Shown piece by piece: positions 4,369 through 21,512 of a stretch of DNA of 64,000 bases; position 1 is the first letter of the stretch, and every line of letters starts with the position of its first letter. The notes below the pieces were generated by a model. That model saw nothing but the letters and a program-made list of their open reading frames with translations, had not been told where the DNA came from and ran no database searches. The stretch comes from a virus. Where the stretch lies: positions 1-64,000 of IMG/VR virus record IMGVR_UViG_3300027896_000002; one strand, given 5' to 3'. The position numbers and the translations under genes are program-made.

Positions 4369-4706
4369 GAGACAAGCTTAGTGTCATTTGGACGTTGATT
4401 GGAATTGTGGTGATTGTAGGTGGATTTTTTGCTTATCTTGAAACCCATTACGCTCACGCCTCCAGCATTGCCGCACAGTTTGAGGCGCTTCAAAAACAGA
4501 CCGATAAGATCAATGACAAGGTTGATTTGGGCGTCTCTATCCAAGAGCGAGACTACTTGCAGAGACAGATTGACGACTTAAAGAAGAAGTGGGAGAACAA
4601 GAAGATGACCGATGAGGCCAAAGAGTTGCTCAAGGGTTATGAGGAAAGACTGAAGCAGAAGCAAGAAGAGATCGGTGACTTGAAAGCGAAGATGAAGCAG
4701 AAGTAA
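4365..4706 (+). CDS. Membrane-anchored coiled-coil protein (113 aa)
   Basis: One N-terminal transmembrane helix (about residues 8-25, WTLIGIVVIVGGFFAYL) followed by a long charged coiled coil (about 40-113) rich in K, E and Q. The shape resembles inner-membrane spanins or phage membrane scaffolds, but the position between terminase and portal does not point to lysis. Function unknown. Confidence 0.65.
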   Translation: MRDKLSVIWTLIGIVVIVGGFFAYLETHYAHASSIAAQFEALQKQTDKINDKVDLGVSIQERDYLQRQIDDLKKKWENKKMTDEAKELLKGYEERLKQKQEEIGDLKAKMKQK

Positions 4707-4726
4707 AAATAGGAGTGTGACTTTAG

Positions 4727-5086
4727 ATGAGATTCATCTTTACTGATAAAGACCAATATTTCAAAGATGAGTACCAAGAAGCTTGGCTATCTGAAGAGAC
4801 AGGTTGGTGGACCCTGGCGGGTGAGATCTATGTCTGGACTCCAGGTCAAGAGCGATTGAAACAAATTGGGGTGGCGGTGCATGAGGCTTTTGAGTGGTTC
4901 ATCATGGTTCGGGTTCTTAAGGGCTTAAGGAAGAGGCATCGCGTCCTTTTTAAATTTTTTTCAGACGCCAGTCACAACATCGCTAATGTTCTGGAGTTCG
5001 TGGTGAGCTCAGGCAGGGCAGATCAGTACTGGGGAAAGCAGGATTGGTATGGTGGAAAAGATCAAGGCATGGCTCAAAGAAAATAA
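4727..5086 (+). CDS. HExxE-motif protein, possible metal-binding domain (119 aa)
   Basis: Contains VHEAFEW (51-57) and, about 25 residues later, SHNIANVLEFV (82-92). The same spacing and residues recur in the large protease fusion (VHEFTER...AHEIANIAEEGV, around 11.6-11.7 kb), so the two are probably paralogous domains within this genome. HExxE plus a downstream His resembles zinc metallopeptidase-like domains of phage polyvalent proteins; activity is inference. Ribosome site AGGAGTG upstream. Confidence 0.6.
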   Translation: MRFIFTDKDQYFKDEYQEAWLSEETGWWTLAGEIYVWTPGQERLKQIGVAVHEAFEWFIMVRVLKGLRKRHRVLFKFFSDASHNIANVLEFVVSSGRADQYWGKQDWYGGKDQGMAQRK

Positions 5087-5238: not shown

Positions 5239-7392
5239 ATGGGATTCTTCGAGTCACTCCAGCAGAACAAGCAGCAGAAGCCAGAGGGGCCACGGACACC
5301 AATCGTTAGCTCCTTTTACACTGCCCCGCAAGCTATCGCGGCTGAGAAGCCCTACTACGCCTTAGTTCAGGCTTATAAGTCCTGGGTTTATACCTGTATT
5401 GACAAGATAGCTAAGGCGGTAGCCATGATCCCGCTGAACCTTTATATCTATCGAAAGGTAAAGTCTGGAACAAAGGTGGTGGACCTTCAGTGGCGAAGTG
5501 AGTACAAATCTATAAAGACTAAAGGGAGGAAGGAGTATTTTCTCAAGCAGATTGGGGTGAAGAAAGAGCAAGTGCTTGACCATCCCTTTCTTTCCCTGAT
5601 TAGCCGTCCCAATCCCTTGATGACTAGATTCATGCTCTGGTATGAGACGATGGTCAGGCTTGAGTTAGGAGGGATGTGTGGATGGCTCCAGATCAAGAAT
5701 GTTTTAAACACCCCCTCAGAGATTTGGCCACTGCCCTTGACTCAATTTGCTAACCTGAGGCCAAAGGTCAGCCCATCGCTTCGGCTTGAGTATTGGGATT
5801 ATCAAGACGGTGACGTGAGGCAGAGGTTTAGGCCAGATGAAATCCTCTTATACAAATACCCACACCCGGCTTCACCTTTCCAAGCCATGTCGCCGTTGAT
5901 GGCACAGACCTACCCCTATGACATTGACCTTTTTCTGATGCAGCAGCAGCGGGCCTTGTTTAAGAACATGGGGATCCCAGGCATTACCCTTGAGACGGAT
6001 GCCGAACTTAGTCCTGATCAAGTTAAAGAGATCAGGGAGCAGTTGTTGTTTGAGTTTGGCAACGCTATGGCTGCAGGCCTCCCGATGATTTTGCATTCGG
6101 GCCTTAAGCAGGGGCAGAAGGCCATGATGAGCAGTAGCCGTGAGGCCATGCTCAACGAGGTGCAGCAGTTCGTCCGAGAAAAATTGATCACGGCCTTTGA
6201 CCTTTCGCCCTCAAAGATTGGGCTTCATGAAAAAGACAATCGGGCAACGGCCGAGGTGGCGGACTGGACGTTTATCAAGGAGTGCTTAAACCCAAAGTGC
6301 ATGCTGATGGAAGAGGTGATCGAGACGTTTGCCCTCCCCCAGTATGACGATGGCCTCACATGCGATTTTGACCTTCCTGATTATCCTGATAATGAATTCA
6401 ATCTCAAGGAGAGGGAGGTAAATCTCAAGACGGGTTATCATTCAATCAACCAGGAGCTTGAGAAAGAAGGTGAGCCACCTGTTCCATGGGGCGAGAAGCC
6501 GTGGATGCCATTTAATTATGTACAATTAGGAGGGACCGTTGTGCCTCCAACTCTAGCAGATGGGGGAACAGACGAGGGCAAGGGAATCAAGTCTCTCAAG
6601 CTGATGAACCGAGCTTTTTGGACCGAGGAAAGGAAAGAACTCTACTGGAAACTTTTTGTCAGGACGGCAGATAACTATCAGCCCCTGATTGAGGGGCCGA
6701 TGAAGAAATATTTTAGCAGCCTTAAGGAAGAAGTTATCAACCGGCTCCACAAGGAAGGAAACAAGGCCCTGAATATTCAAGGCATAAACATTAATAAAAA
6801 GACCGAGGCCAAGAAGCTTGTCAAAAGAACCGAGCCAGCGGTCAGGCAGATAGTGGAAGACGCCGGTCAGCATCGCATGAAGGACCTGCTTGAGACCGTA
6901 AAGCTTCAGACGCAGTTTGAGTGGAATGCCAGGGTGACGGGATGGCTTGGCGATCGCCTGAAACAGTTTTCAGAGCAGGTGTCAGGGACTACCTTTGATG
7001 CGATTGAGAAGATATTAAAAGAAGGGTTTGCGGCGGAGGCCACCATCACCGAGATGGCGGAGACGTTGAGGCAGACGTTTGATTCTTGGGAAGAGTACAG
7101 GGCGGCCAACATCGCTCGCACCGAAACGATTTCTGCCATGAACGCTGGTGACATTGAGGGCGTCCGACAGTCAGGGCTTGAGGATGCTTTGCTTAAGTGC
7201 TGGCTGTCTTCACGGGACGCTGCCGTTCGGCCAACCCATCAGCAGGCAGATGAGGAATACGCTGACGGGATTCCGATGGATGAAGATTTTATCGTTGGCG
7301 CTGATTCGATGGATGCCCCTGGGGAAGGGACAGACCCAGCAGAGGTCTGTAACTGTAGGTGCACGCTCTATTATATAGAGGCAGGCGAGTAA
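5239..7392 (+). CDS. Portal protein fused to a MuF-type minor head protein
   Basis: The first 450 or so residues match the HK97-type portal family (AYKSWVYTCIDKIAKAVAMI near residue 50; DNRATAEVADWTF in the later core), which forms the dodecameric DNA channel. The last 120 residues carry a phage Mu F / SPP1 gp7-type head morphogenesis domain: ARTETISAMNAGD, the W.SS.D..VRPTH core and a terminal CNCRC. These are normally separate adjacent genes; here they form one 717-residue polypeptide, so 12 MuF copies per capsid would be fixed to the portal. GAGGAG precedes the ATG. Confidence 0.9.
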   Translation: MGFFESLQQNKQQKPEGPRTPIVSSFYTAPQAIAAEKPYYALVQAYKSWVYTCIDKIAKAVAMIPLNLYIYRKVKSGTKVVDLQWRSEYKSIKTKGRKEYFLKQIGVKKEQVLDHPFLSLISRPNPLMTRFMLWYETMVRLELGGMCGWLQIKNVLNTPSEIWPLPLTQFANLRPKVSPSLRLEYWDYQDGDVRQRFRPDEILLYKYPHPASPFQAMSPLMAQTYPYDIDLFLMQQQRALFKNMGIPGITLETDAELSPDQVKEIREQLLFEFGNAMAAGLPMILHSGLKQGQKAMMSSSREAMLNEVQQFVREKLITAFDLSPSKIGLHEKDNRATAEVADWTFIKECLNPKCMLMEEVIETFALPQYDDGLTCDFDLPDYPDNEFNLKEREVNLKTGYHSINQELEKEGEPPVPWGEKPWMPFNYVQLGGTVVPPTLADGGTDEGKGIKSLKLMNRAFWTEERKELYWKLFVRTADNYQPLIEGPMKKYFSSLKEEVINRLHKEGNKALNIQGININKKTEAKKLVKRTEPAVRQIVEDAGQHRMKDLLETVKLQTQFEWNARVTGWLGDRLKQFSEQVSGTTFDAIEKILKEGFAAEATITEMAETLRQTFDSWEEYRAANIARTETISAMNAGDIEGVRQSGLEDALLKCWLSSRDAAVRPTHQQADEEYADGIPMDEDFIVGADSMDAPGEGTDPAEVCNCRCTLYYIEAGE

Positions 7393-7402
7393 GAGGTAAA
7401 CT

Positions 7403-9403
7403 ATGGCCTTAACATTTAACAGAATTTTTGGCACTTCGGGATCCAGCAACGGACAGTTTAGCAATCCAAGCAAGCTAAAGGTCTATGGGGATAAGATCTA
7501 TATCCTTGATGTCAATAACATAAGAATTGAGGTCGTAGACCTTCAGGGAAATTATGTAACTCAATGGGCAGAGGCGGCACAGGGTGCGGACCTTGATGTT
7601 GCTGATGGTTATGTTTATGTCGCTTACCCAAGCTCAGGGTATGTTTATAGATATGACCTAATTGGAAATGGGGCAGGAAGCTTTCATCCAGTGTTTGATG
7701 AGACGTATTATATTTGTGCGGCGACAAATTATCTCTTGTGTGCCAGGGTCTCGGACTTGATCGCTGTTTATGACCCTGGCTTTAATCTTTTAGGGCAATA
7801 CTCTACCAGTCCAATTGTTAACGTAAAGGGACTGGCATTTTACAACGGTGAGATCTATATTCTTGGTCAGAATAGTGGCTCCTATCCGGAAGTTGTCGTA
7901 ATGAACCCTTTGAACGGTAGCATAAACCGTAGTTTTTTAATCCCTCAGGTTGTGTATAGCCCGTATGGCATTGACGTTGACAGCACAGGGGTCTATATCG
8001 CGGGCTTTGGAAACAACAAAGTTTATCGGTATGACATTAATGGAACTTATCTGGATTATGCCCAGTACGGGGACGGGGCAGCCTTCTATCCTTCGGACGT
8101 CTCTCTTTACAAGGGAGAAATCTTTGTCGCTAATGCCCCACTTGATAATATCTTGGTTTATGAGGAGCCAGCCCCACCATCAATCACCGCATTTACCATC
8201 CCTCAATCGTATGGTTCGAGGACCGTTCCTATTACTGCATTTACGGCTTCAAATTCTCCGACGGGCTATTTGGTGAATCAGGCGTCAAGCCCTCCGGCAC
8301 CCAATGATCTTGGGTGGACGGCTAACCCTCCGACCAATTATGTCTTTGGCACCGTTGGCTTGAAATGGCTTTATCCCTGGGCCAAGAATGGGGTCGGGGT
8401 GTCGACAGATGGAGACAATAATAGAAAGAGCGTGTTCGTCTACGACCAGGTACCTCCGACGGTCTCGGAGTTTGAGATTCCACCGACGTCGGATTCTCTG
8501 ACCGTGCCGATTACCACGTTCGTTTTGACAGGGGTCTACATCACAGGTTATATCGTTACTGAATCAAGTAATGCTCCTGATCCGAATGGCCAAGGATGGA
8601 CCCCTTGGCCTACTTTGAATTATACGTTTGGATCGGCTGGCGCTAAGACGCTTTACGCATGGGGAAAAAATGTCTATGGGGTATCAAGCTCGTTGAGTGC
8701 CCAGGTGGTTGTAACCCTGACGCCTCCGACCCCATTTCCGTCACCTCCTTCTGGATTTAAGTTAGAAATTTATTTGGAGTTTGATGAGAAGATCGGTGCC
8801 ACAGGAATTTATCTCGCCGACGGAACGCCATGGGGTTATGCTGAATTTGAAAATAACACCACGAGAATTTATCTGGCCGATGGGACGCCGTGGGGTTATC
8901 TGGAATATGATGAGAAGACCGATTCTACAAGGATTTATCTTGAAGATGGAACGCTTCGTGGCTACTGGGTGTTCGATGCAAAAGCTGATACCGTAGAGAT
9001 CTATCTCGCTGACGGGACGCCGTGGGGAAGAGCAGCTTACGATGAGAAGACGAACCAGACTCTGGTATATAAGAGAAAAGACATCATTGGGATAAACGAT
9101 ACGGTCGTTGGCAGGTTGACGGCAGCAAGCCCTCCAGATCCTTACTACCTTCCAGATATTTATTATTCAGAGGATTGGAACTTGGTGGAGGTTGTTGTCG
9201 GGCAGGCGATAACCGTCGTTGAAACAAGTCCTGATTTTAAGATTTGGATAGATATTCTCGACGCCACAGATTTGGTAAATCCCATTTTTGAAGGGGGAGG
9301 GCCGATAACGTTTACGCCGCAAGCTGGGATAAATTACGTGATCAGAGCAAGCACCTATGCTGAATATCAGGTGGGTGCTTATACGTTGGCGACGGTGTCG
9401 TAA
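7403..9403 (+). CDS. NHL-type beta-propeller virion protein with internal repeats
   Basis: N-terminal NHL-like blades (FGTSGSSNGQFSNPSKLKVY; repeated YGDKIYILD, DGYVYVAY, YNGEIYILGQ) form a probable six-bladed propeller in residues 1-250. Two homologous approximately 85-residue segments follow (FTIPQSYGSRTVPITAF and FEIPPTSDSLTVPITTF). Next come four short repeats of the type IYLADGTPWGY (about 455-555) and a C-terminal beta domain like pre-peptidase C-terminal folds. No signal peptide. Its place between portal and protease suggests a capsid decoration or carbohydrate-binding protein; this is inference. Confidence 0.75.
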   Translation: MALTFNRIFGTSGSSNGQFSNPSKLKVYGDKIYILDVNNIRIEVVDLQGNYVTQWAEAAQGADLDVADGYVYVAYPSSGYVYRYDLIGNGAGSFHPVFDETYYICAATNYLLCARVSDLIAVYDPGFNLLGQYSTSPIVNVKGLAFYNGEIYILGQNSGSYPEVVVMNPLNGSINRSFLIPQVVYSPYGIDVDSTGVYIAGFGNNKVYRYDINGTYLDYAQYGDGAAFYPSDVSLYKGEIFVANAPLDNILVYEEPAPPSITAFTIPQSYGSRTVPITAFTASNSPTGYLVNQASSPPAPNDLGWTANPPTNYVFGTVGLKWLYPWAKNGVGVSTDGDNNRKSVFVYDQVPPTVSEFEIPPTSDSLTVPITTFVLTGVYITGYIVTESSNAPDPNGQGWTPWPTLNYTFGSAGAKTLYAWGKNVYGVSSSLSAQVVVTLTPPTPFPSPPSGFKLEIYLEFDEKIGATGIYLADGTPWGYAEFENNTTRIYLADGTPWGYLEYDEKTDSTRIYLEDGTLRGYWVFDAKADTVEIYLADGTPWGRAAYDEKTNQTLVYKRKDIIGINDTVVGRLTAASPPDPYYLPDIYYSEDWNLVEVVVGQAITVVETSPDFKIWIDILDATDLVNPIFEGGGPITFTPQAGINYVIRASTYAEYQVGAYTLATVS

Positions 9404-9442: not shown

Positions 9443-12400
9443 ATGAAGATCCCAAAATTGGAGCGTAAAGTATTCTCTGCAGAGGTCAAGGAATTTGATG
9501 ACGAGCAATTGACAGTGACCCACTTCATCTCAACAGAGAAGAGAGACAGGGGTGGAGACTCCATGAAGGCTGACGGCATGAAGATCAGGGGTAAGGTCGT
9601 TGTGCTTCTGGCCCATGGGTTTTCTAGCATGGGGCAGGAGCCTATCGCCAAGCCTTTGAAGATCTGGCCGGACACATTTAAGGGATCTCCAGGTATATGT
9701 GCAATGACCCAGTTCTACGACGGCAGTCATCTTAACCCGCCCGACAATACGGGTCGAAGGTTCTATGATAAGACTAAGAATGGCTACATGCCCAACTGGT
9801 CTATCGGGTGGATCCCCATTAAGTGGGAAGACATAAAAGGGCCCCACGGTGAATATTATCGAGATGTCATTGAATGGGAGCTTCTTGAATACTCTCCGGT
9901 GGGCGTGCCAATGAACCCTGACTGTCAGACCGTGGATAAATCTGGCAAGTGCAATGTGGACAAGTGTGGCACCTGCCAAAAAGAAGCATGGTTCAGAGTT
10001 CTCCCAGATGATGTTGTGCCAGTTGGTAAAGAGGAATTTAAACATTATACATACCTTGATGGAAAGCCTCTTTGGAAAGAGGATGATCGGGAGGAGCTTG
10101 AGAAGAAGCTTGGAGATCTCTGCCAGTATAAAGACGGCTTGCTCTGTGACATGGAAGGCAAGCCCTATCCGAACGAGCATGCCTGCTGCATCAACGACCC
10201 AAAAAAGTATGACCGTATCAGGAGAAACAATGATAAGTTTGGCAAGGGCATTCACGCTCTCTGGGGGATCAAAAAAGGAAATCCGGTTGAGCTTCAAGCC
10301 ATTCGGTTTTCTAAGAGTAAGTTCACGCCAGCGGAGGCCCGTAAGTGGTGCAAGGACCATGAGTACAAATGCAAGCCCTTTGAGCCTGCCAGTGAAAAGT
10401 GTGCAACGTGTGGCGCAGAGATGGTCTGGAAGTGGTTTATGGAAGATGAGGAAGATGGTGTCTATTCTTGCGAGGCCTGCAAGGGGATCAAGGCAAAAAA
10501 GAACGAGTGCAAGTGTGACAACGAGAAGTGTGGCCACACGGTCGCGTGGGATAGCAATTGCCACGGGATGAAGTGCCTCAAGTGTGGCAAGGGAACGTTG
10601 AGAAGGGTGAAGAAGACGAAGAAAGATCTTGAGGGTAAGATGAGTGTTGAAACAAAGAGTGGACGGATGTTTATCGGCATTCATTCTATCCCGACCTTAA
10701 TTGGCGTTGACATATATTCCGAACCAAAGTTAAGAGAGATACTTGAATTTACAAGAGAATTTCTGAATCGAGGGACTCCAGTGACTTTGATGGCTGACGA
10801 CGATTCAATCTGTGAGCTTGATAAAGATAAAATTCGCTTACTTGAAGAGCCGAAAGGAGCTATTCCATATAAGAAGACCCCTTCTGCCAAAGATGATGAG
10901 CCTTGGAGCTTAAGGGAAGAGATAGGTAAGGCATCGCTGGATGACTTGAGAGAGATGGCAGTATGGGTTGATGAGAAGCGTCCCAAGGCTAAAGGCTCAT
11001 ACAAGGGAATTCACCACAAGGCTGGTGGAGATTATCCTGTCGTTAAGAAAGCTGTCAGGGCATTGGCGGCCAACCTTTTAAATTCCAGGGGAGGAATTCA
11101 CATCCCAACCGTTGACTTGAAAAAAGCACGAGAGCACTGTGCTTCCCACTACGAAGATCTGGGAATGGGTGAAGTGCCATGGAAGAGCAAGAAGGGAATA
11201 GAGTTTGTTGAGTGGGTAGCTATCAGTTTTGATCTTAGCGGAATTTCTTTTAGGTCGTTTACTGAAGAAGATAATAAAAAGATCTTTGAGAAAGCTAAAA
11301 CTCTTATTCCAGACCTTGTTGAATTCTTCAGCCTAGAGTATAAGCAAGACGATTGGGGGTACGGGGATGGTGGAGATGGTGACGGTACTGGAGATAGTGC
11401 CGAGCCGAACCTTACCGAAAGCGAGACGGTGGTCATCGAGATGATAGATGGCCAGGAGATCCGAGACCGCATGGATAACTTGGGCATTGAGTACACGATG
11501 GGCGGCCATCACTACGTTTATCCTGACTTGGTTCCAGAGGAAAATAAGATCATCGTCGATGGAAGGATGAGCGATGAGGATATCGTTGCCACAAAAGTTC
11601 ACGAGTTCACTGAACGTGAGCTTATGAAGTATTACGACTTTCCCTATAATAACGCCCACGAGATTGCTAACATAGCAGAGGAAGGAGTTCGCCATATCCT
11701 GAAAGACTGTGAAGATGGTGGGCACGGCGGGGTGCTGGGGGATGGCCGTAATCACGATCCTGAACACAGAGGCAACCATCATCACGACCATGGGAGGACG
11801 GTAGACCACACGTGGGAGCAGGATGCACTCAACGTTGTTAAGGAACTTTATCAGGCTTGGGATGAAATGAAAAAGCTTGGGCAGCATGATGACGAATGCA
11901 CCTTTGATTCAATATGTCCAGCATGTAAAACTCCCATAGGGAAATGTGATAAGCACGTTGAAGCGATGGCGACTCGAATTGTAAAAATGGACAAGGCCAT
12001 TGCTGATTGTGAAGAGAAAATCGGACAGGGCATCAGCTCAGCTTCAACAGACGTAAGGGATGAGGAGTTGGATTCCTTTATCGATTTTATAAAGACCATG
12101 AAGGAGAAGTTTAATTCAATAGAGTTGATGGTTGCCGCTTTGACAAATAAGCAGAACGACATGTGCGAGCACTACATCGAAAAATGTTCTGTCTGTGATA
12201 AGGTGATCTCATCTTGTCGATGTTCATCGAAGGATAAAGTGATCAAGCTTTCTGTTTGTAAGGAGTGCAGAGAGAAGAATAAAACTTCGGAGCCACAAAA
12301 GATAGTTGCGGTCAATGGCGGGGATGAGGAGAAGAGGATGCTTGCTGAGATCTCAAAGCAGCTGTCAAGGGAGTTCAGTGACCTGATAACCCAGTATGAA

Positions 12401-12460
12401 GAAAATACACGGAAGCTTATCAGGGCTGAAATCAATAAAGCTAAAGGGAGGGTAGAATAG
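9443..12460 (+). CDS. Prohead protease fused to zinc-ribbon, HExxE and coiled-coil modules
   Basis: A 1005-residue protein. Residues 1-160 are an HK97-type (S78/U35) maturation protease: LLAHGF with His58 and EYSPVGVPMNP with Ser151. Several Cys-rich zinc ribbons follow (CNVDKCGTC; CATCGAEM...CEACKG; CDNEKCGH...CLKCGKG), then a GIKKGNPVELQAIRFSKSKF-type segment common in phage protease fusions. Further on are a YKGIHHKAGG segment, an HExxE domain (VHEFTER around 717), a CxxC pair and a helical C-terminus of the kind that could scaffold. HK97-like phages often place protease and scaffold in one frame; the zinc and HExxE additions are unusual. Confidence 0.8.
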   Translation: MKIPKLERKVFSAEVKEFDDEQLTVTHFISTEKRDRGGDSMKADGMKIRGKVVVLLAHGFSSMGQEPIAKPLKIWPDTFKGSPGICAMTQFYDGSHLNPPDNTGRRFYDKTKNGYMPNWSIGWIPIKWEDIKGPHGEYYRDVIEWELLEYSPVGVPMNPDCQTVDKSGKCNVDKCGTCQKEAWFRVLPDDVVPVGKEEFKHYTYLDGKPLWKEDDREELEKKLGDLCQYKDGLLCDMEGKPYPNEHACCINDPKKYDRIRRNNDKFGKGIHALWGIKKGNPVELQAIRFSKSKFTPAEARKWCKDHEYKCKPFEPASEKCATCGAEMVWKWFMEDEEDGVYSCEACKGIKAKKNECKCDNEKCGHTVAWDSNCHGMKCLKCGKGTLRRVKKTKKDLEGKMSVETKSGRMFIGIHSIPTLIGVDIYSEPKLREILEFTREFLNRGTPVTLMADDDSICELDKDKIRLLEEPKGAIPYKKTPSAKDDEPWSLREEIGKASLDDLREMAVWVDEKRPKAKGSYKGIHHKAGGDYPVVKKAVRALAANLLNSRGGIHIPTVDLKKAREHCASHYEDLGMGEVPWKSKKGIEFVEWVAISFDLSGISFRSFTEEDNKKIFEKAKTLIPDLVEFFSLEYKQDDWGYGDGGDGDGTGDSAEPNLTESETVVIEMIDGQEIRDRMDNLGIEYTMGGHHYVYPDLVPEENKIIVDGRMSDEDIVATKVHEFTERELMKYYDFPYNNAHEIANIAEEGVRHILKDCEDGGHGGVLGDGRNHDPEHRGNHHHDHGRTVDHTWEQDALNVVKELYQAWDEMKKLGQHDDECTFDSICPACKTPIGKCDKHVEAMATRIVKMDKAIADCEEKIGQGISSASTDVRDEELDSFIDFIKTMKEKFNSIELMVAALTNKQNDMCEHYIEKCSVCDKVISSCRCSSKDKVIKLSVCKECREKNKTSEPQKIVAVNGGDEEKRMLAEISKQLSREFSDLITQYEENTRKLIRAEINKAKGRVE

Positions 12461-12461
12461 A

Positions 12462-12513
12462 GATCCTAACCCGAATAGACGGGATCATCCCAATAGGGAT
12501 TAACAGGTCGGGT
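12462..12513 (+). ncRNA. Pseudoknot leader RNA, copy 1 (upstream of capsid gene)
   Basis: Stem P1 pairs GATCC (12462-12466) with GGATC (12482-12486). Its loop holds ACCCGA (12469-12474), which pairs with TCGGGT (12508-12513) to make a pseudoknot. Between them is a hairpin ATCCC-AATA-GGGAT (12487-12500). A second diverged copy follows with compensatory changes, supporting a real RNA fold. It lies between the protease stop and the capsid ribosome site. Confidence 0.7.
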
Positions 12514-12532
12514 GAAAATAAGATTTAACAAG

Positions 12533-12589
12533 GATTCCACCCTGAATAGACGGAATCACCCAGGACTTAAAGGGGTTAGCAGGACAGGG
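12533..12589 (+). ncRNA. Pseudoknot leader RNA, copy 2 (upstream of capsid gene)
   Basis: Same layout as copy 1 with different paired bases: GATTCC (12533-12538) with GGAATC (12552-12557), and loop CCCTG (12540-12544) with CAGGG (12585-12589). An inner ACCC/GGGT hairpin (12558-12561 / 12573-12576) is also possible. Unpaired GAATAGACGG and TAGCAGG are conserved relative to copy 1 (GAATAGACGG, TAACAGG). Family not recognised; a tandem cis-regulatory RNA or processing element for the most highly expressed gene is plausible. Confidence 0.7.
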
Positions 12590-12630
12590 GAAAAAAGAAA
12601 ATAAAAAACTAAAAAAGGAGGAAACACACT

Positions 12631-13953
12631 ATGGACCCGATAGAAGTTGAAGTTAAAAAGAAAGAGGACGGCTCGTTGTATTTTGACGTGGCTAAGATCA
12701 TGGAGCACATGCAGAATGGCACCTTAGGCGTTATTAGGCAGGAGATGAAGAGTCTTTTGCAGGCCGAGGTGAAGACCATTTTTGACAACAGCGATGGGCG
12801 TTTTGTCGGTAAAGAAGATAAGTCCATCATCGACACAAGCTATTTCAGCAAAGGCTACGCGGCTGGCAGACGGGGTGAAATGGACGGAAGCCAGTTGGCT
12901 TTTACCCTGGCTGCTTGTGGTGGGCCGTGGCTAAAGCTCTCACCGGCTATGGAAAAGTTTGCAAACTTAGTTCGGCTGAGATTCGATCCCAATCAGATTG
13001 TCGCTAAGGGAATTAGCATGCAGGACTATAACAAGGAGATGTATGATTGGAACAAGAAGGCCGCACTTTCTGGAGCTTTGACAGAGGCTGATGTGGGCGC
13101 GATTGTTCCAATTGAGTTCCTTGCAACCGTCATTGAGTTTGCGATTGAGCAGAGCAAGATATTGCCCAAGCTCTGGAGAATTCCACTGGGTGCCTATCAG
13201 ACAAGAATCCCGCAGCTTGCCCAGTCTGCAGGCAGCTATTTTGGTGGGATTTTGCTCTATCACCCAGAGGAAGCTTACGAGAAGACAGGTACAAAACCAA
13301 CTTTCGTTTACAAGACCCTGACACCTAAGAAGTTGATCGGTTTGATTCCGATCTCTGACGAATTGGTTATGGACAGCTCAATCAACATCATCAATTACCT
13401 AACGGGCCTTTTCACCAGGGCCTTTCAGTATGCGTCAGAGGGTGAGGTGATTGCAGGTGCTGGGCTGTTGGGCCAGATGCTGGGCATCACCAGTGACCCT
13501 TTTATCAACGTAGTGCCCAGACAGACAGCAGGGACAGTCAAGAGAGATGATGTGATTAACCTTGAGTCTATCCTTGATGAGAACTTTCAGGACCTTAATT
13601 ACCTGACAAGGAGAACAACCCTTAATATTCTTCGCAAGGAGAAAAATGTTGTTGGCACTCCATTTTACTATGACACGATGGAGTCTGGGCTTGAGAGAGG
13701 GGTTGGCCCCCAGCTTAATGGGTATCCAGTGCTTAAAACTCGGAACGTGCCAGCCACAGGAAAGAAAGGTGACATCATCTGTGGTGAGCTTGGGTATTAT
13801 CTCTGGGGCATTCGTCAGGACATGACCATTGATATGTCAGCCGAGCGATATTTTGAGTACGATGTGAAGGCCATCCGCTTTGTGGTTCGTCAGGACGGAC
13901 TGCCAGGCGTTTCGATTGCCTTTGCAGTGCTTGACAGTACCCCAGAATCATAA
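12631..13953 (+). CDS. Major capsid protein, HK97 fold
   Basis: Forms the icosahedral shell. The 440-residue protein has an N-terminal helical region of about 140 residues that may act as the delta/scaffold domain. The HK97-type core follows: GAIVPIEFLATVIEFA, IPQLAQSAGSYFGG, ISDELVMDSS, the GAGLLGQMLGI loop and a C-terminal DVKAIRFVVRQDG strand. The ribosome site GGAGGA lies 8 bases upstream of ATG and is preceded by two pseudoknots; two hairpins follow the stop. This isolation by RNA structure suggests separate control of expression level. Confidence 0.9.
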   Translation: MDPIEVEVKKKEDGSLYFDVAKIMEHMQNGTLGVIRQEMKSLLQAEVKTIFDNSDGRFVGKEDKSIIDTSYFSKGYAAGRRGEMDGSQLAFTLAACGGPWLKLSPAMEKFANLVRLRFDPNQIVAKGISMQDYNKEMYDWNKKAALSGALTEADVGAIVPIEFLATVIEFAIEQSKILPKLWRIPLGAYQTRIPQLAQSAGSYFGGILLYHPEEAYEKTGTKPTFVYKTLTPKKLIGLIPISDELVMDSSINIINYLTGLFTRAFQYASEGEVIAGAGLLGQMLGITSDPFINVVPRQTAGTVKRDDVINLESILDENFQDLNYLTRRTTLNILRKEKNVVGTPFYYDTMESGLERGVGPQLNGYPVLKTRNVPATGKKGDIICGELGYYLWGIRQDMTIDMSAERYFEYDVKAIRFVVRQDGLPGVSIAFAVLDSTPES

Positions 13954-14045: not shown

Positions 14046-15176
14046 ATGAACAAGGAGATTCCGGAAGTTTTAAAAGACGCCATTTTTACGGATGATAAAA
14101 GCATGGTTGAAGTTGAATATACTTTATCTGGGTATGGAGGCGCCAAGACCTGGATTAGTGTGGAGCGGGCACTGCTTGGTGAAGCTCATGGAAGATGGAA
14201 GATAGTTAGAAGACTTCAGCGGTATGATAACAAGATGATGACAGCGGAGATTCCTCCTGATTCTTTAACCAGGGGCAATTTATTCTCTAATGGAACGTAT
14301 GAAACCAAGGGGGTAAAAAAAAAGAAAGTAGCTTGGGTTCAGGACCTGGTGATAAGGGGCGGGGCGGAGATCAGCAATGAGCTTGTCATTAGGACTGGGA
14401 TTGAGTGTGGGTTTAACATCAAGCGAGTCTTTCAAACGGTGTCTTGTTCCATTATAGAGGACCTGTTGGGTCAGTGTGATCTTATTGTTCTTAATAACAT
14501 CTGGGCCTTCTCAGATGAGCAAATGAGGGTTATTAAGATGTTTATCCAGAAGAAGCCTTATGTTAAATATGAGCATGATCATAGAGAGCTTGGCAGATTA
14601 GAATTTTCAAAAGGCCTTTTCTCAAATTCTAAGCTTAACGTCTTTTTGTCCCCTGCCCATCTTAATAACTATCAAGAGAAGCTTGGGATAGACGGAATCT
14701 GTCTGCCTCTTGCCATTGATGTTGATCTTTTTAAACCTGTACAGGGGGTTGAGAGGAAATCTAACACGGCGCTGATATGTAACGTCAGGCATCTTAGGAC
14801 ATGGTTAAATCTTCAGAAATATGTGGACGAGCATCCTGAGATTTTATTTACGGTAATGTTAAACGGTGAGACTAAGGTGGTGGGAGATAATGTTACCACC
14901 AGGCCGATGATTCCATATGAAGAGATGCCTAAACTTTATTCTGGGTTTGAGTACCTTGTCCATATCATGGATGGGTGGGGAGCTGGAGAGAGAGTCTTCT
15001 TTGAAGGCATGCTTTGTGGATGTAATGTGATTTCAAACAAAAGGGTAGGACATACTTCCTGGAATGAGCAGGAATCTATGGGTTGGGTCGTTGATTTTAA
15101 AGACGTCAATGGCTTGAGAGAATGGCTCAAGAAAGCGCCATATCAGTTTTGGAAAGCAATTGACCAAAGAATATAA
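14046..15176 (+). CDS. GT-B glycosyltransferase with extra N-terminal domain
   Basis: From about residue 95 it resembles GT4/GT1-type enzymes: VAWVQDLVIRGGAEISNELV at the acceptor-side Rossmann fold, NNIWAF, DVDLFKPV, and a C-terminal MDGWGAGERVFFEGMLCGC, where the family has its E-x7-E donor-binding motif. The first 90 residues (EVEYTLSGYGGAKTWISVER) are not part of a normal glycosyltransferase and are unrecognised. It is the first gene after the capsid and opens a sugar cassette inside the virion operon; it is likely to decorate either virion proteins or host surface sugars. Confidence 0.75.
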   Translation: MNKEIPEVLKDAIFTDDKSMVEVEYTLSGYGGAKTWISVERALLGEAHGRWKIVRRLQRYDNKMMTAEIPPDSLTRGNLFSNGTYETKGVKKKKVAWVQDLVIRGGAEISNELVIRTGIECGFNIKRVFQTVSCSIIEDLLGQCDLIVLNNIWAFSDEQMRVIKMFIQKKPYVKYEHDHRELGRLEFSKGLFSNSKLNVFLSPAHLNNYQEKLGIDGICLPLAIDVDLFKPVQGVERKSNTALICNVRHLRTWLNLQKYVDEHPEILFTVMLNGETKVVGDNVTTRPMIPYEEMPKLYSGFEYLVHIMDGWGAGERVFFEGMLCGCNVISNKRVGHTSWNEQESMGWVVDFKDVNGLREWLKKAPYQFWKAIDQRI

Positions 15177-15187
15177 TAGGGATTTAC

Positions 15188-15949
15188 GTGAAAATATTTT
15201 GGGCATTTTGCATTTATAATGAAAGAGAAATGCTTCCTTTCAAGATAGATTTCATGAGAAAGAATGCCATCAATTTTTATGTCTTTGATAATGTAAGCGT
15301 AGATGGGTCGTGGGAATGGCTTCAAGAGAACAAAATTCCGTCTGGTAGGTTCAACTCTGATGGAATGTTCAACCTGACATTAAACCTTAGTTTGTTGACC
15401 AAGAAGATTCACGAGGTGAAGCCTGATTGGGTTATTATGGCTGGGACAGATACCTTCTATGTCCATGGTAAGAGGACGCTTAGGGAGACGATAGAATCTG
15501 TGGACAAGCAGGGATTTAATTGTATCTATGATGTTTTTAAATCGTTTCAGTTTATGTTTACTGGGGAAGAAAAACCTGGGGAAGATCCTAGGTTGACTTA
15601 TATGTATTATGTTTTAAAATCTTTTAATAATGTTTGCTGCATTGCCAAGTATTGTTCGCAGCTGAAGTTTAGGTCTGCTGATTGTCTTGTTGTCCCAAAG
15701 GCAAAGTTATATCAAGACGGGGATTTTGTGGCATTGCATTATAGCATGAGGCATGACGCAGAGAACAGGAAGACGGAACAATACATCAGGAGAAAAAAAG
15801 CTTGGGATTCGGGGCGTACCGCACGGTGCTATGGCACTCACTACGAGAGGATCGTGAACAGCGGCCGTTTTATTTTTGATAAAAAAGATCTCCTAGATGT
15901 AAGAGATTCTTTTCTTTGGGGGGCTATAAGGAAGTCTGTAGAAGCGTGA
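15188..15949 (+). CDS. Glycosyltransferase, GT-A type (GT92/DUF-like)
   Basis: Starts at GTG 15188. The N-terminus FWAFCIYNEREMLPFKIDFM and the MAGTDTFYV stretch (DxD-like) match glycosyltransferases that begin with a 'YNE' nucleotide-binding motif; HYSMRHDAENRKTEQYI near the C-terminus is typical of this group. Probably transfers a sugar from a nucleotide-sugar donor in the cytoplasm. It overlaps the next start (ATGA), so it is co-translated with it. Confidence 0.7.
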   Translation: MKIFWAFCIYNEREMLPFKIDFMRKNAINFYVFDNVSVDGSWEWLQENKIPSGRFNSDGMFNLTLNLSLLTKKIHEVKPDWVIMAGTDTFYVHGKRTLRETIESVDKQGFNCIYDVFKSFQFMFTGEEKPGEDPRLTYMYYVLKSFNNVCCIAKYCSQLKFRSADCLVVPKAKLYQDGDFVALHYSMRHDAENRKTEQYIRRKKAWDSGRTARCYGTHYERIVNSGRFIFDKKDLLDVRDSFLWGAIRKSVEA

Positions 15950-16905
15950 TGAATGTTGTGATGCTTTCTAAACATGATTATGCTGGGAGCGGGTGGCAGA
16001 TAGTCCAGGCTGTTCGTCGTCACACGAGGCATAATATTGTGCACGTCAAAACGACCTCCCATAAGCACGGTTATAAGACAGACTATATTCTAGATGGAAA
16101 AAATCGGGCAGTTGTTCAAGGGCTTGTGGACAAGGCTGATGTTGTTCACTTCAAGGGAGATGATCTTCCATCGAGAGATTGGTATGGAGTTAAGATCCCA
16201 GAGAAAGTGAAAATTATTCTTACCGTTGGGGGATCGTTTTTTAGAAGAAATGGAAGGAGGACAGGGCTTAGGCCAATTGAAGAGTATGTTAAAAGATCGG
16301 ATTTTAGGACTGCCTTGTCTCCTGATTTGAATTATGATGAATTTAAGTCAGTGTATACTCCATACTTGATCGATAGCGAAAAAGCGGAGTATTCTTGGAA
16401 AGAGGATAGGGATGGAAAGTTTGTTATTGGCTGCTATCCTGGAGTGAGAAAAGAAAAGGGTTTTGAATCAGTTGTCGAGCCTGCTTGGCGTCAGCTTGAA
16501 AAGGAAGGATATAAATTTGAGAAGGTGTTAACGATTGGAATGACATACGAACAAAGCGTTGGGGCCAAGAAGGGGATGTCAATATTTATAGATCAGATTT
16601 CCTTGGCCGGCTGCTATGGGAATTCTGCTCTTGAGGCCATGCAGTTTGGCATTCCTGTAGTTGCTTATATAGGAGATGTGGCTTTAAAGCATGCCATGGA
16701 AGAATTTAAAAAATCTCCGATTATGAATCCTGGAAAAACAAAGGAGGGGCTTTATCTTTTACTCAAGAGGATACTGTCAAGAAAAATTGACTTGTCAGAT
16801 ATATCTAAAAAGACGAAATGTTACTGCGATGGTTTTCACTCCTATACCGTAGGGGCAAGGATATGGAATGAGATTTATGAAAAAGTTGCAAGCAAAAATG
16901 TTTAA
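15949..16905 (+). CDS. Glycosyltransferase, GT-B fold (GT4-like)
   Basis: ATG 15949 overlaps the preceding stop. Signature elements are MLSKHDYAGSGWQIVQAVRR at the N-terminus, IGCYPGVRKEKGFESVVEPA at the domain junction, and SLAGCYGNSALEAMQFGIPV, the GT4-type E-x7-E donor site. About 318 residues, normal for a compact GT4 enzyme. Acceptor and donor unknown. Confidence 0.8.
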   Translation: MNVVMLSKHDYAGSGWQIVQAVRRHTRHNIVHVKTTSHKHGYKTDYILDGKNRAVVQGLVDKADVVHFKGDDLPSRDWYGVKIPEKVKIILTVGGSFFRRNGRRTGLRPIEEYVKRSDFRTALSPDLNYDEFKSVYTPYLIDSEKAEYSWKEDRDGKFVIGCYPGVRKEKGFESVVEPAWRQLEKEGYKFEKVLTIGMTYEQSVGAKKGMSIFIDQISLAGCYGNSALEAMQFGIPVVAYIGDVALKHAMEEFKKSPIMNPGKTKEGLYLLLKRILSRKIDLSDISKKTKCYCDGFHSYTVGARIWNEIYEKVASKNV

Positions 16906-17506
16906 AAACGTTTTAGTTGTGTCTCCTCACACGGATGATGGTGAACTTGGGGCAGGGGGGTCATTGGCTAAATTCTCAAGAGAAGGAAGCCAAATTACTC
17001 ATCTGGTGTTTTTTGATGGGGAAAAGCAGTCAGAGGAAATTTTAAAAGAGTTTGAAAAGTCAAACGGTATTTTTGCCCCATCTTCAAACAGGATAGTGGA
17101 GAGGCTTAAGATAAGAAGTTATGAAAAGGACCGTCAAAGAATATTGGATTTAATGATTGAAATTGAAAGAAGTTTTAAACCAGACCTTGTCTTTCTTCCC
17201 TCGTCGAGAGACTTTCATCAAGATCACATGACGGTTTCAAGGGAAGGGCTTAGGGCATTTAAATTTTCTACTATCTTCGGTTATGAGGAACCTTGGAATA
17301 ACCTCGTGTTTGAGACGTCTTGCTTTATTGAGATATCAAAAGGAGATCTTTCAAAGAAATTGCGGGCGTTAAATTGTTATAAGTCTCAAAAGGCGCACTA
17401 TTATTTTTCAGATGAGATTATTCGATCACTGGCTTTAGTCAGGGGAATGCAGATCAGGGCTCAGTACGCGGAGGCATTTGAGATCATTAGGATGATTGTT
17501 CATTGA
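16868..17506 (+). CDS. PIG-L/LmbE-family N-deacetylase
   Basis: The zinc-binding motif SPHTDDGELGAGG near the N-terminus and the later FLPSSRDFHQDHMTV (HxxH) are diagnostic of LmbE/PIG-L enzymes, which remove acetyl groups from N-acetylglucosaminyl compounds. ATG 16868 has AAGGAT upstream and overlaps the previous gene; ATG 16901 would start directly before the conserved VLVVSPH strand but lacks a clear ribosome site. In this cassette it would create a free amino sugar that the following acyltransferase could re-acylate. Confidence 0.85.
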   Translation: MRFMKKLQAKMFKNVLVVSPHTDDGELGAGGSLAKFSREGSQITHLVFFDGEKQSEEILKEFEKSNGIFAPSSNRIVERLKIRSYEKDRQRILDLMIEIERSFKPDLVFLPSSRDFHQDHMTVSREGLRAFKFSTIFGYEEPWNNLVFETSCFIEISKGDLSKKLRALNCYKSQKAHYYFSDEIIRSLALVRGMQIRAQYAEAFEIIRMIVH

Positions 17507-17517
17507 GGAGTAATGGT

Positions 17518-18078
17518 TTGAAAATGATAGAAAGATTCAAGTTTTGTCTGGAGATGAGAGAGAAATGTCCTGAGACTCTTGGGATTCATCCCTCAATAAT
17601 TATCCCAGAATGGGTTTTAATTGGGAAAAATGTTTCAATTCATGAGAGAGTTATCTTGGGAAGTCAGGGTTTTGGATTTGCGAGAGATGAGGATGGCCAT
17701 TGGTTTCATATCCCTCACGTTGGAAAGGTGATAATTGAGGATGACGTAGAGATATTTGAAGGGACAAATGTTTGCCGTGGTACGCTGGGAGATACTAAAA
17801 TTGGCAGGGGGACGAAGATTGATGCCTTATGCCACATTGGGCATAATGCCGTGATAGGAGAAAATTGTATCATAACCGCTCATTGCATGATCGCAGGGTG
17901 CGTGATAGGAAATGACGTGTGGGTTGGCCCAAATTCAACGACTAAGCCCAAGATCCAGATAGCTGACAATGTGCTCATAGGCCAAGGTTCTAATGTCGTT
18001 GAGAGTATCCTAAAGCCTGGGGAAGTTTGGGCAGGAAATCCAGCTCGTTTTTTAAGAATGAGAAAACCGTTTGAGTAG
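17518..18078 (+). CDS. LpxD-like hexapeptide-repeat N-acyltransferase
   Basis: Left-handed beta-helix protein of about 186 residues. GSQGFGFARDEDGHW, HIPHVGKVIIEDDVEIFEG and KIDALCHIGHNAVIGENC reproduce the LpxD pattern, including the catalytic-type His in GHN. LpxD adds a hydroxyacyl chain to an amino sugar; this version lacks the usual N-terminal uridine-binding domain, so the donor/acceptor may differ. The start is TTG 17518, 7 bases after GAGGAG; ATG 17524 is the alternative. It follows the deacetylase, a natural deacetylate-then-acylate pair. Confidence 0.8.
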   Translation: MKMIERFKFCLEMREKCPETLGIHPSIIIPEWVLIGKNVSIHERVILGSQGFGFARDEDGHWFHIPHVGKVIIEDDVEIFEGTNVCRGTLGDTKIGRGTKIDALCHIGHNAVIGENCIITAHCMIAGCVIGNDVWVGPNSTTKPKIQIADNVLIGQGSNVVESILKPGEVWAGNPARFLRMRKPFE

Positions 18079-18089
18079 AAAGGTAAAAA

Positions 18090-18344
18090 ATGTCATTGCA
18101 TCCGGTGACTGATGAGGAGAGAAGAGCCAATAACCCAAAGATGTATGTGAGCAACAAGTGGACGATTTGTGAGTTGCTGCGAAAGATTTATATTTTGGCT
18201 GAAGCCAGGAATGATACAAGAACAATGCACCTTTCTCACGACGCTCTTTGCTATGCTAAAAGAATGAATCTTAAGCTAGGCCAAAAAGATCCGAAGTATG
18301 GAGAAGAGTGGTATTATGGTAAACGAGAAAGAAAAAATTATTAA
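18090..18344 (+). CDS. Small hypothetical protein (84 aa)
   Basis: A basic helical protein (TDEERRANNPKMYVSNKW...; AKRMNLKLGQKD) with AAGG upstream. No recognised domain. It overlaps the epimerase start and so belongs to the sugar cassette transcript. Confidence 0.6.
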   Translation: MSLHPVTDEERRANNPKMYVSNKWTICELLRKIYILAEARNDTRTMHLSHDALCYAKRMNLKLGQKDPKYGEEWYYGKRERKNY

Positions 18345-19263
18345 GAGGGCTTTGGTTACGGGCGGGGCAGGTTTTATAGGCTCTCACTTATGTGAGCGGT
18401 TGACGGGCATGGGGATTGAAGTAATTTCTCTTGATGATTATTCTGCTGGTCACATTGAAAATTTACGGAAAGTTCATTGCAAAAAAGTATATGGAGATGT
18501 GCTCAATGAATATTTGGTAATGGACTTGATGAAAGATGTGGATGTGGTATTTCACAACGCAGCAAGTAAAAAAACCATCTGCATCGCAGATCCTAAACAT
18601 GATCTTGACGTAAATGCCAAGGGAACTTTGACACTGCTTACGGCAGCTTTGAAACAGGGGGTAAAAAAATTTATTCATGCATCAACTGGTTCTGTTTATG
18701 GACAGCCCTCCTGTTTTCCACAGGACGAAGATCACCCCTTGAGGCCGATCTCTTATTACGGCGTGAGTAAGTTGGCTGGGGAACGTTACGTTGAAATGTT
18801 TTACAAATTGTTTGGTTTAGACACGACAATTTTGAGATATTTTCACGTGTATGGGCCTCGACAGGCTAATGGAAAATATGGCGGAGTGGTGGCAATTTTT
18901 ATTACAGGCATGTTGATGGATTTGCCAATATTTATTCACGGGGATGGTAGTCAAGAGAGATCTTTTACCTATGTGAAAGATATAGTAGACATAAATCTGG
19001 AAGCAATGAAATCTCCTTTTTCAAGTGGGCAGGTTTATAATTGTGCCTCTGGGCTGCACGTAAGCGTGCTTGATTTGCATCGGGAACTTGCAAGGCAATT
19101 AGATTGTAATGGAAAATCTCCAGTTTATACAGAGAGTGATCTGGGAGAAGTTTTTAAGTTTGACGTTTCAAATGAAAAAGTCAAGAAGGATTTGAAGATA
19201 AATTTTACGTCGCTCGATGAAGGATTGCGGGAGACAATATCTTGGTTCAAGGTCAGTGCCTAG
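18316..19263 (+). CDS. NAD-dependent nucleotide-sugar epimerase/dehydratase
   Basis: Extended short-chain dehydrogenase. Rossmann motif TGGAGFIGSH, the D of LDDYSAG that selects NAD, Ser in ASTGSVYG, and catalytic YYGVSKLAGERY (YxxxK). It resembles UDP-glucose/GlcNAc 4-epimerases (RYFHVYGPRQ, GDGSQERSFTYVKD). It would supply an activated hexose for the neighbouring glycosyltransferases. ATG 18316 has GGAGAAG upstream and is preferred to ATG 18298. Confidence 0.88.
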   Translation: MVNEKEKIIKRALVTGGAGFIGSHLCERLTGMGIEVISLDDYSAGHIENLRKVHCKKVYGDVLNEYLVMDLMKDVDVVFHNAASKKTICIADPKHDLDVNAKGTLTLLTAALKQGVKKFIHASTGSVYGQPSCFPQDEDHPLRPISYYGVSKLAGERYVEMFYKLFGLDTTILRYFHVYGPRQANGKYGGVVAIFITGMLMDLPIFIHGDGSQERSFTYVKDIVDINLEAMKSPFSSGQVYNCASGLHVSVLDLHRELARQLDCNGKSPVYTESDLGEVFKFDVSNEKVKKDLKINFTSLDEGLRETISWFKVSA

Positions 19264-19277
19264 TAGAGGTGATTGTC

Positions 19278-19982
19278 TTGAAGATATGTGCTTATCTACC
19301 CATTTATAAAAGAGAGGGACTTTTGGCGGAAACACTTCGAAGATTGAAACACCAGACATTGTCATTTGAGCGTATTGTAACTGTTGGAAGTTGTGACGAG
19401 GACAAGGAGATTGCAAAAAAATTTGGGGTTGATTATATTGGCCATGAAAACCATCCCTTGAGTGATAAGATTCAGGCAGGGGTGTCATACCTTCGTCAAT
19501 TTAAACCTGATGCAATTATGGGCATAGGTTCAGATGATTGGGTTACAAGTAATTGGGTTGAGGAGGTCTCCAAATGCTTAGGAGAATTTGATATCATTGG
19601 GGCAGACCACTTTTATCTTTTTCTCGTAGATTCAAAGCCAATACAGTTGATTCGGTACTGTTATCCCTCTTCTCGGTATGGTGAGCCGATGGGCGCAGGC
19701 AGATTTGTATCAAGACGGATTTTGGATAAGCTTGATTGGAGGCTTTATCCTCGGGGATTTGAATGGGGCCTTGACGGTAAAAGCCACAGCAGGATGGTGG
19801 CTTTAGGTGCAACGTACTCATTGTATAGAAGTGATAAAGCAAAAATCTTATGCCCAAAAGGAATTCAGGGACAATTGACCACTTGGGACCATGCGATCAA
19901 CTCAGATCGCAGTAAGAAAATTGATGATAAGCACTGGATCAGCACAAATTTCCCTGGCGTTGTAATGGAAGGGTCGGTATGA
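19278..19982 (+). CDS. Glycosyltransferase, GT2-like
   Basis: KICAYLPIYKREGLLAETLR with GSDDWVTSNW as the acid-rich metal-binding motif; no membrane helix. The TTG start at 19278 follows GAGGTG and removes a non-homologous leader. It overlaps the next gene by 4 bases. Sugar and acceptor unknown. Confidence 0.72.
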   Translation: MKICAYLPIYKREGLLAETLRRLKHQTLSFERIVTVGSCDEDKEIAKKFGVDYIGHENHPLSDKIQAGVSYLRQFKPDAIMGIGSDDWVTSNWVEEVSKCLGEFDIIGADHFYLFLVDSKPIQLIRYCYPSSRYGEPMGAGRFVSRRILDKLDWRLYPRGFEWGLDGKSHSRMVALGATYSLYRSDKAKILCPKGIQGQLTTWDHAINSDRSKKIDDKHWISTNFPGVVMEGSV

Positions 19983-20770
19983 TTCTGATCGTCTCAAGGT
20001 TTGGTAGAATGAATAAATATCCAGATCAGGTTATGATGAGGAAAACATTGGCTGCTTTTTTAAGATCTCTGGACAATCAGACGGATAAGGGCTTCAGGGC
20101 TTTCTTAAGCTGCCATGATGTACCAGAGGGGTTCAATTATCCCTGGCTTGAATGGTGTTCGATGGCCGCTAACCCAGAGAACAGTGGCACAAAATACTGG
20201 AAACGATTCCCTATAAATCTAGATGATCTTGGAGAAAGAATTGTCTGTACGTATGGCAGCAAAATTCAAGACTCTGGCCGTAAGGGGATTCACTCGGTGA
20301 TAAAAGCAGGGCAATGGGCATATAGAAATGGACTAAAAGATTTTTGGATAATGAGGATGGATAGCGACGACATGCTTGCAAAACGCACGATTGAAACTAT
20401 TCACGCTCTTGATAAGCAAGGGATAGAGGCTATTTATAATAGACGCTGTCACATCTTTGACGCACGAACAAGAGAGATTGGGGAATATAATTACAGATCT
20501 TCTACAACCTGTAACGCTCTTAAGATGAGAATTGAGAAAAATATACTCCTGCGTTGGTTTTATCTTTGCACCAATCACACGAGATTTATCTCTGATGTGA
20601 GGAGAGATAAAATAAAATTTAAAGAGGTAGACTGGACTTATTGCATTGTCACTAATTCTAGGAATTCAATTTCTAGCAGGCCAACATTAACCGCAGAGAG
20701 ATGGGCAAGGAAAATTGGCATGACGAAGAAATTATCAGATCGCTATGGCTTAGATCAGTTTGGGAGATAA
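19979..20770 (+). CDS. Glycosyltransferase (GT-A, rhamnosyltransferase-like)
   Basis: VSRFGRMNKYPDQVMM at the N-terminus and IMRMDSDDMLAKRTI, a DxDD metal/nucleotide motif, match a family of putative rhamnosyl transferases. 263 residues, soluble. Contiguous with flanking transferases. Confidence 0.72.
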   Translation: MILIVSRFGRMNKYPDQVMMRKTLAAFLRSLDNQTDKGFRAFLSCHDVPEGFNYPWLEWCSMAANPENSGTKYWKRFPINLDDLGERIVCTYGSKIQDSGRKGIHSVIKAGQWAYRNGLKDFWIMRMDSDDMLAKRTIETIHALDKQGIEAIYNRRCHIFDARTREIGEYNYRSSTTCNALKMRIEKNILLRWFYLCTNHTRFISDVRRDKIKFKEVDWTYCIVTNSRNSISSRPTLTAERWARKIGMTKKLSDRYGLDQFGR

Positions 20771-20771
20771 C

Positions 20772-21506
20772 GTGATTGACATAATTGTTACAACGTATAA
20801 TCGACTTCATTTTTTACAAAGTACTCTTGAAAGTCTTCTTGACAGCGTAACTAGTGAGCTGTTCAAACTTTATATCATTGATGATTGCAGCTTTGACGGG
20901 ACGAGGGAATATCTTAGCAAGATGAATAAATTTCTTGACATTTCTATCATCCTATCTGATGAAAGAAGAGGGGTCGTTCCAAACTTTAATTCTTTGTGGG
21001 ATACAGTTATTTTAAATGAAAGGCATCCATTCTTGTGCTATCTGCAGGACGATATAGTTGCAGTGGAAAAAGATTGGCTTACCGTATTGACTGTGGCGTG
21101 GCACGAAATGAAAGACGCCTATAAGATTGGTTTTTTGAGTGGGTATGATGCTCCAGAGCATCCAACAGAAAGAGAAATAATGTGGATGGGTCGAAATGTA
21201 AAGATTAAGAAGTCTACGTCAGGGCAAAATTTATTCGCTGATAAGAAGTTTTGGGCTTCTATAGGAAAGCCCCCTGAATTAAATTTTAATGGTTCGGTGC
21301 GTGGCTTTCCAGACAATGGTAAAGGGTCTAATATTGATGTCTGGTTTACAGGTTGTTATTCCTTGAGTAAATTTGACCAGAAAAATGCAGCTCCTAATTG
21401 TCTTTATAAGCAAGGCAAGAGGGTTATGGTTATTCCAATGTTAAAGCATCTTGGCATTGAAAAAAAAGACTCAACTTGGCGACAAAATCGGGTCGGAGGG
21501 TTTTAA
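20772..21506 (+). CDS. Glycosyltransferase family 2
   Basis: Classic GT2 start VIDIIVTTYNRLHFLQSTLE, IIDDCSFDGTREYL, and QDDIVAVEKDWL as the metal-binding aspartates. GTG 20772 is preceded by GGGAG and overlaps the preceding gene's last bases only minimally; a TTG 12 bases earlier is possible. C-terminal lysine-rich tail. Confidence 0.8.
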   Translation: MIDIIVTTYNRLHFLQSTLESLLDSVTSELFKLYIIDDCSFDGTREYLSKMNKFLDISIILSDERRGVVPNFNSLWDTVILNERHPFLCYLQDDIVAVEKDWLTVLTVAWHEMKDAYKIGFLSGYDAPEHPTEREIMWMGRNVKIKKSTSGQNLFADKKFWASIGKPPELNFNGSVRGFPDNGKGSNIDVWFTGCYSLSKFDQKNAAPNCLYKQGKRVMVIPMLKHLGIEKKDSTWRQNRVGGF

Positions 21507-21512
21507 GGAAAG

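Follow-up and report, generated by a model that had tools for sequence, protein, structure and literature searches.

Tandem covarying pseudoknots in the leader of the major capsid gene of an uncultured phage

Two pseudoknots between the protease and capsid genes

We examined 64 kb (the whole stretch of DNA analysed, called here the window) of a 74-kb IMG/VR virus record whose source phage is uncultured. A leader of 170 nt (12461-12630) separates the head-maturation protease gene from the gene for the major capsid protein (MCP), and the identity given to the latter in a preliminary description of the locus was borne out by its matches to HK97-type capsid families (Table 1). The only open reading frames that overlap the leader are mechanical short ones. 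No sigma-70-like promoter was found in the window leader, and the capsid gene is therefore probably co-transcribed with the protease gene and the genes upstream; no terminator was found downstream of the pseudoknot in this leader either. Elsewhere in the window, a 666-aa protein with IYLADGTPWGY-type repeats and no Pfam or PHROG match is encoded between the portal and protease genes (7403-9403), and directly after the capsid gene a gene block of ~8.5 kb (14046-22523) interrupts the head and tail genes. Glycosyltransferase-, deacetylase-, epimerase- and acyltransferase-like genes were recognised in this block by eye from the translations.

The leader carries two copies of a structured element. 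The strings quoted for them in the preliminary description were all found in place, with copy starts 71 nt apart, and copy 1 starts one base past the protease stop codon. Each element is an H/HLout-like pseudoknot, in which the loop of a P1 hairpin pairs with a downstream strand (PK) and a small hairpin (P2), present in both copies and additional to the helices named earlier, lies in between. On the 3' side of P2 and PK come an unpaired A-rich stretch and then the ribosome-binding site, whose Shine-Dalgarno GGAGG is unpaired and lies 27 nt downstream of the pseudoknot.

We scanned both strands of the whole 64 kb with a descriptor consisting of P1, PK and P2 with realistic spacers and scored by stacking energy. 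Copy 1 ranked first and copy 2 fourth. Among dinucleotide shuffles of the 170-nt leader (n = 2,000), only 23 gave any match, none reached the score of copy 1 and none gave two equally good matches. When the two copies were aligned, 33 of 34 cells (97%) were standard pairs, and the compensatory differences claimed earlier were confirmed as four two-sided changes (one in P1, two in PK and one in P2); one A-U pair in the PK helix of copy 1 has no counterpart in copy 2. As a control, sliding the partner strands by 1 to 3 columns left 27 to 59% of cells paired, with no two-sided changes. A local CCCG/CGGG hairpin, put forward as a competitor of the pseudoknot, exists in copy 1 and is not retained in copy 2. 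Thermodynamic folding gave no signal for the window leader (z = -0.9) or for that of the related phage L067 (z = +1.0), and is uninformative because the method cannot form pseudoknots. The pseudoknot fold is a real and well-supported feature, of which the window carries a tandem duplicate, and it is probably involved in maintaining or controlling the capsid message.

Table 1. Features of the protease-capsid junction in the window, and helices of the corresponding elements in related phages
Feature	Positions	Strand	Details
Head-maturation protease gene	9443..12460	+	1005 aa; ORF; phrog_80, E = 1e-12
Protease stop codon	12458-12460	+	TAG
Pseudoknot copy 1	12462..12513	+	top descriptor match in 64 kb; 0/2000 shuffles
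Copy 1, P1	12462-12467/12481-12486	+	GATCCT/GGGATC
Copy 1, PK	12469-12474/12508-12513	+	ACCCGA/TCGGGT
Copy 1, P2	12487-12491/12496-12500	+	ATCCC/GGGAT
Copy 1, joining strand	12501-12507	+	TAACAGG
Pseudoknot copy 2	12533..12589	+	4th descriptor match in 64 kb; compensatory changes relative to copy 1
Copy 2, P1	12533-12538/12552-12557	+	GATTCC/GGAATC
Copy 2, PK	12540-12544/12585-12589	+	CCCTG/CAGGG
Copy 2, P2	12558-12561/12573-12576	+	ACCC/GGGT
Copy 2, joining strand	12577-12584	+	TAGCAGGA
A-rich linker, pseudoknot to ribosome-binding site	12590..12616	+	from sequence; predicted unpaired in fold
Shine-Dalgarno	12617..12621	+	GGAGG; from sequence; outside all pseudoknot helices
Major capsid protein gene	12631..13953	+	440 aa; HK97 fold family; PF05065, E = 1e-31; phrog_10
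Element of L001-L008 and L038			P1 GTCCCC/GGGGAC; PK GCCCTGA/TCGGGGC
Element of L068			P1 GTCCTA/TGGGAC; PK GCTCTGA/TCAGAGC
Element of L067			P1 GATCTCC/GGAGATC; PK GCCCT/GGGGC
Element of L027			P1 AATCCCC/GGGGATT; PK GTCCT/AGGAC

The element in related phages

Capsid searches in viral contigs yielded ~20 distinct relatives. The P1-PK-P2 architecture recurs with other letters at the protease-MCP junction of the L001 clade, L067 and L068. L027 is probably a fourth lineage with the element, and only probably so because the element found there was matched in 19 of 400 shuffles of its leader (0 for L004, 0 for L067 and 7 for L068, n = 400 each). In all four lineages the capsid ATG follows the end of the element by ~20-40 nt, an interval that includes an A-rich stretch. 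Columns aligned by helix across lineages showed two-sided changes in six P1 columns and in at least three PK columns, the two innermost PK pairs of copy 1, whose placing is ambiguous by one position, being left uncounted. The preliminary description had staked its structure on the proposed pairs being maintained in homologous leaders, and the helices are indeed kept in those of the relatives. When 3' strands were re-dealt among the six elements, the observed pairing was reached in 2 of 720 permutations for P1, 6 of 720 for PK and 3 of 200,000 when both helices were re-dealt independently; these figures are favourable, since the helices were chosen because they pair, and the 400-shuffle tests are fairer. 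A covariance model built from the two window copies (R1) recovered both of them and none of the relatives' elements, so that the case for homology of the latter comes from their place and architecture and not from a sequence score.

The unpaired positions are far from constant. The PKa-P1b loop, which reads AATAGAC in the window, changes from lineage to lineage, and the loop equivalent to GAATAGACGG reads TCAAGCGA, TCAAGCC, TAACTACC or GACGG in the relatives. The unpaired bases shared by the tandem copies are present as described and mostly specific to them; with GAATAGACGG common to the two window copies only, such bases do not serve as a hallmark of the family. Just two unpaired features recur, namely, A(A/G)CA, located close to the 3' strand of PK in 5 of 6 elements, and the A-rich tail (all). 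P2 is a hairpin of 4-5 bp in the window and a weak one of 3-4 bp in L067, and in L001, L068 and L027 it is enlarged by a long terminator-like hairpin with a U-tract. A long hairpin ending GCTTTTCTTTTTGGGG, located upstream of the protease gene in L112 (5905-6000; record G016), resembles the P2 insert of L001 and L068, and the G016 phage is without a capsid-leader element. In L004, ~195 nt separate the element from the protease stop, and a short ORF remnant (MPRGIAKNPEGLKRSDW...; 4654-4815) with no Pfam or PHROG match occupies the space between protease and pseudoknot. The capsid gene of L004 is followed directly by a TnpB-like gene on the opposite strand (OrfB_IS605, Cas12f1-like TNB; 6425-7546, -), and a gene similar to those of the ~8.5-kb block of the window also comes after it.

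The element is cleanly absent from L090 and L091, close relatives of L067 (capsid identity of L067 and L090, 82%). In alignments of L067 with both, the whole element appears as a clean insertion/deletion, and it is therefore dispensable. All elements fall within one subclade of the capsid tree, along with the element-free L010, L090 and L091, which have short leaders, and L028, which has a terminator-like hairpin only. This distribution fits an ancestral element with several putative losses. Separately, we observed terminator-like GC hairpins with a U-tract, and no pseudoknot, at the junctions of L028, L033, L034, L035, L071, L072 and L073, only ~20-40 nt before the capsid start; the outer helix that often closes them varies between lineages and still pairs (GCGGG/CCCGC, GCCGG/CCGGC, AGCCGAA/TTCGGCT).

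Beyond these phages, the nearest cultured ones have only ~2-17 nt ahead of the capsid gene. No capsid relatives were found in 84,980 bacterial and archaeal genomes, and a comparison of the leader DNA with annotated phage and plasmid records gave no significant relative. Descriptor scans of related phage records revealed no clear further site beyond the capsid leader, the lower-scoring matches being taken collectively as chance. Several motif scans were set aside. An exact-motif scan of IMG/VR (GAATAGACGG..TARCAGG) gave 12 matches, all of them chance matches that lack the structure; a scan for the 3' half GRTTARCANNWCRGGGNNAAAA found real cases only in the L001 clade; and a scan for the U-tract TTTTCTTTTTGGGG returned generic terminators, plus the site upstream of the protease in G016. 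Searches of the open-access literature turned up no earlier description of a pseudoknot in the leader of a phage capsid gene. We conclude that these elements form a small, apparently undescribed family of pseudoknot RNAs, carried in the leader of the MCP mRNA by a single clade of uncultured tailed phages.

Possible functions of the element

Because the structure is conserved across lineages and the loop sequence is not, we prefer a structural role. The Shine-Dalgarno is free at 27 nt and no terminator follows, so that the platforms usual for a riboswitch are missing and the main ideas left are a barrier and a protein operator. The reading that we place first, tentatively, is a cis-acting structural element (a barrier or insulator) that sets the level or the translation of capsid mRNA. 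A compact barrier would set the capsid cistron, which is highly expressed, apart from the portion of the late message that precedes it. Such a barrier could shield capsid mRNA from decay entering from upstream or mark a new 5' end after processing, and it would leave the A-rich landing site accessible to ribosomes; the outcome would be capsid protein in excess over protease and portal. This reading is supported by helices kept with different letters in independent leaders, by the free Shine-Dalgarno and by a tail that is A-rich in all leaders, and the long P2 hairpin of L001, L068 and L027 would also strengthen a barrier. Against it stand the clean absence of the element from close relatives and the failure of the covariance model to reach the elements of the relatives.

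The main rival, possible though doubtful, is a translational operator, in which a phage or host protein (capsid, protease or an RNA-binding protein) would bind the pseudoknot, extend over the A-rich tail and occlude the ribosome-binding site, in the manner of gp32 on the T4 gene 32 leader. The design is similar, with a pseudoknot followed by an A-rich leader that is unstructured as far as the ribosome-binding site, and the gene 32 pseudoknot of T4, T2 and RB69 is likewise missing in the relative RB49 (PMC3014915). Binding could also involve the tandem arrangement and the A(A/G)CA that recurs close to the 3' strand of PK. However, the long PKa-P1b loop is not conserved between lineages, and no candidate binding protein was identified. 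A broader proposal, which we consider unlikely, is that the elements are a new, vertically inherited phage pseudoknot family devoted to the capsid message, which either truly blocks 5' exonucleases or the degradosome (xrRNA-like) or serves as a capsid autoregulatory operator. If so, it would be a counterpart among bacterial viruses to the protective pseudoknots found in RNA viruses. Few capsid genes of double-stranded DNA phages are documented to have a structured leader, although far more capsid must be made than of the other proteins encoded nearby in its operon, and the leaders of close relatives with and without the element amount to a natural experiment on the ratio of structural proteins made from one late message.

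An attenuator or antiterminator, in which the pseudoknot would control an intrinsic terminator located before the capsid gene, is suggested by the terminator-like hairpin with a U-tract inside P2 of L001, L068 and L027 and by the terminator-like hairpin at the protease-MCP junction of the pseudoknot-free L028, L033, L035 and L071-L073. We judge it improbable, since neither the window nor L067 has such a hairpin and, where one exists, the terminator is transcribed before P2b and PKb, which therefore cannot prevent termination co-transcriptionally.

Riboswitch-like sensing, one of the roles first proposed, was weakened by our analysis, and a tandem small-molecule riboswitch controlling capsid expression now seems quite improbable. 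The compact pseudoknot with an internal hairpin has a topology like that of preQ1-II (HLout; PMC11625349), and the copies are tandem. Nevertheless, the five leaders had no Rfam riboswitch match (a PreQ1 match in L027, with E = 9.7, is at chance level), no aptamer-like binding core is conserved across lineages, and no expression platform is visible, the Shine-Dalgarno being distant and unpaired and no terminator following the pseudoknot.

HDV-like ribozymes have the strand order P1a, P2a, P1b, P4, P2b. The pseudoknotted element comes near to this order, but self-cleavage releasing a separate capsid mRNA is very hard to credit: PKa-P1b is 6-8 nt in copies 1 and 2, L001, L067 and L068, too short for the P3 helix of HDV, and there is neither an Rfam ribozyme match nor an invariant catalytic core across lineages. 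Equally remote is a DNA-level feature (a phage promoter) or pseudoknot-driven readthrough of the protease stop, for although TTAACA before PKb resembles a -35 box and yields one weak promoter-like match in L098, and copy 1 begins 1 nt past the TAG, the window leader has no promoter-like match and the compensatory pairs point to RNA; for readthrough, the spacer is too short, the L004 element lies far from the protease stop, and readthrough was rejected outright because the frame closes at a TAA after two codons.

Comparison with known RNA systems

The earlier failure to recognise a named family held up against Rfam, which gave no match above noise in any of the five leaders; the window had none at the gathering score, and positions 12300-12700 had none at E values up to 10. 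In design the element comes closest to the gene 32 pseudoknot, in topology to preQ1-II and in tandem repetition to STAXI, and it lacks a defining feature of each.

The gene 32 leader pseudoknot of T4, T2 and RB69 lies 67 nt upstream of the start and is patchy among relatives, being missing in RB49; like it, our element belongs to a phage mRNA leader with patchy occurrence and stands tens of nucleotides before the start, with an unstructured A/U-rich stretch leading to the ribosome-binding site (PMC3014915). Unlike T4 gene 32, which encodes a single-stranded-DNA-binding protein, the gene that follows here encodes the capsid, and the element differs in having a P2 hairpin, an interhelical loop of 5-8 nt and, in the window, a tandem arrangement. 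STAXI (RF01728) likewise consists of tandem pseudoknots (PMC2864571). However, STAXI is enterobacterial, lies near DNA-processing genes and frequently has UUCG loops, whereas here protease and capsid genes adjoin. Its covariance model had no match at the gathering score in the window, nor at E values up to 10 in 12300-12700.

In preQ1-II riboswitches an additional hairpin precedes the 3' strand of PK, and the same topology of P1, PK and embedded hairpin is present here. As in preQ1-II (RF01054, HLout; PMC11625349), the loop of the P1 hairpin pairs downstream. The 3' PK strand of preQ1-II contains the Shine-Dalgarno, whereas here PK lies 27 nt upstream of GGAGG, and the Rfam model of preQ1-II had no sequence match in the leaders. 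Intercistronic hairpins that stabilise or process mRNA are known from phage and bacterial operons, as in the RNase III sites of T7 and the REP hairpin in malEFG. Like these, the element places a structure at the junction of differently expressed genes in one operon; those structures are hairpins, whereas the ones described here are covarying pseudoknots.
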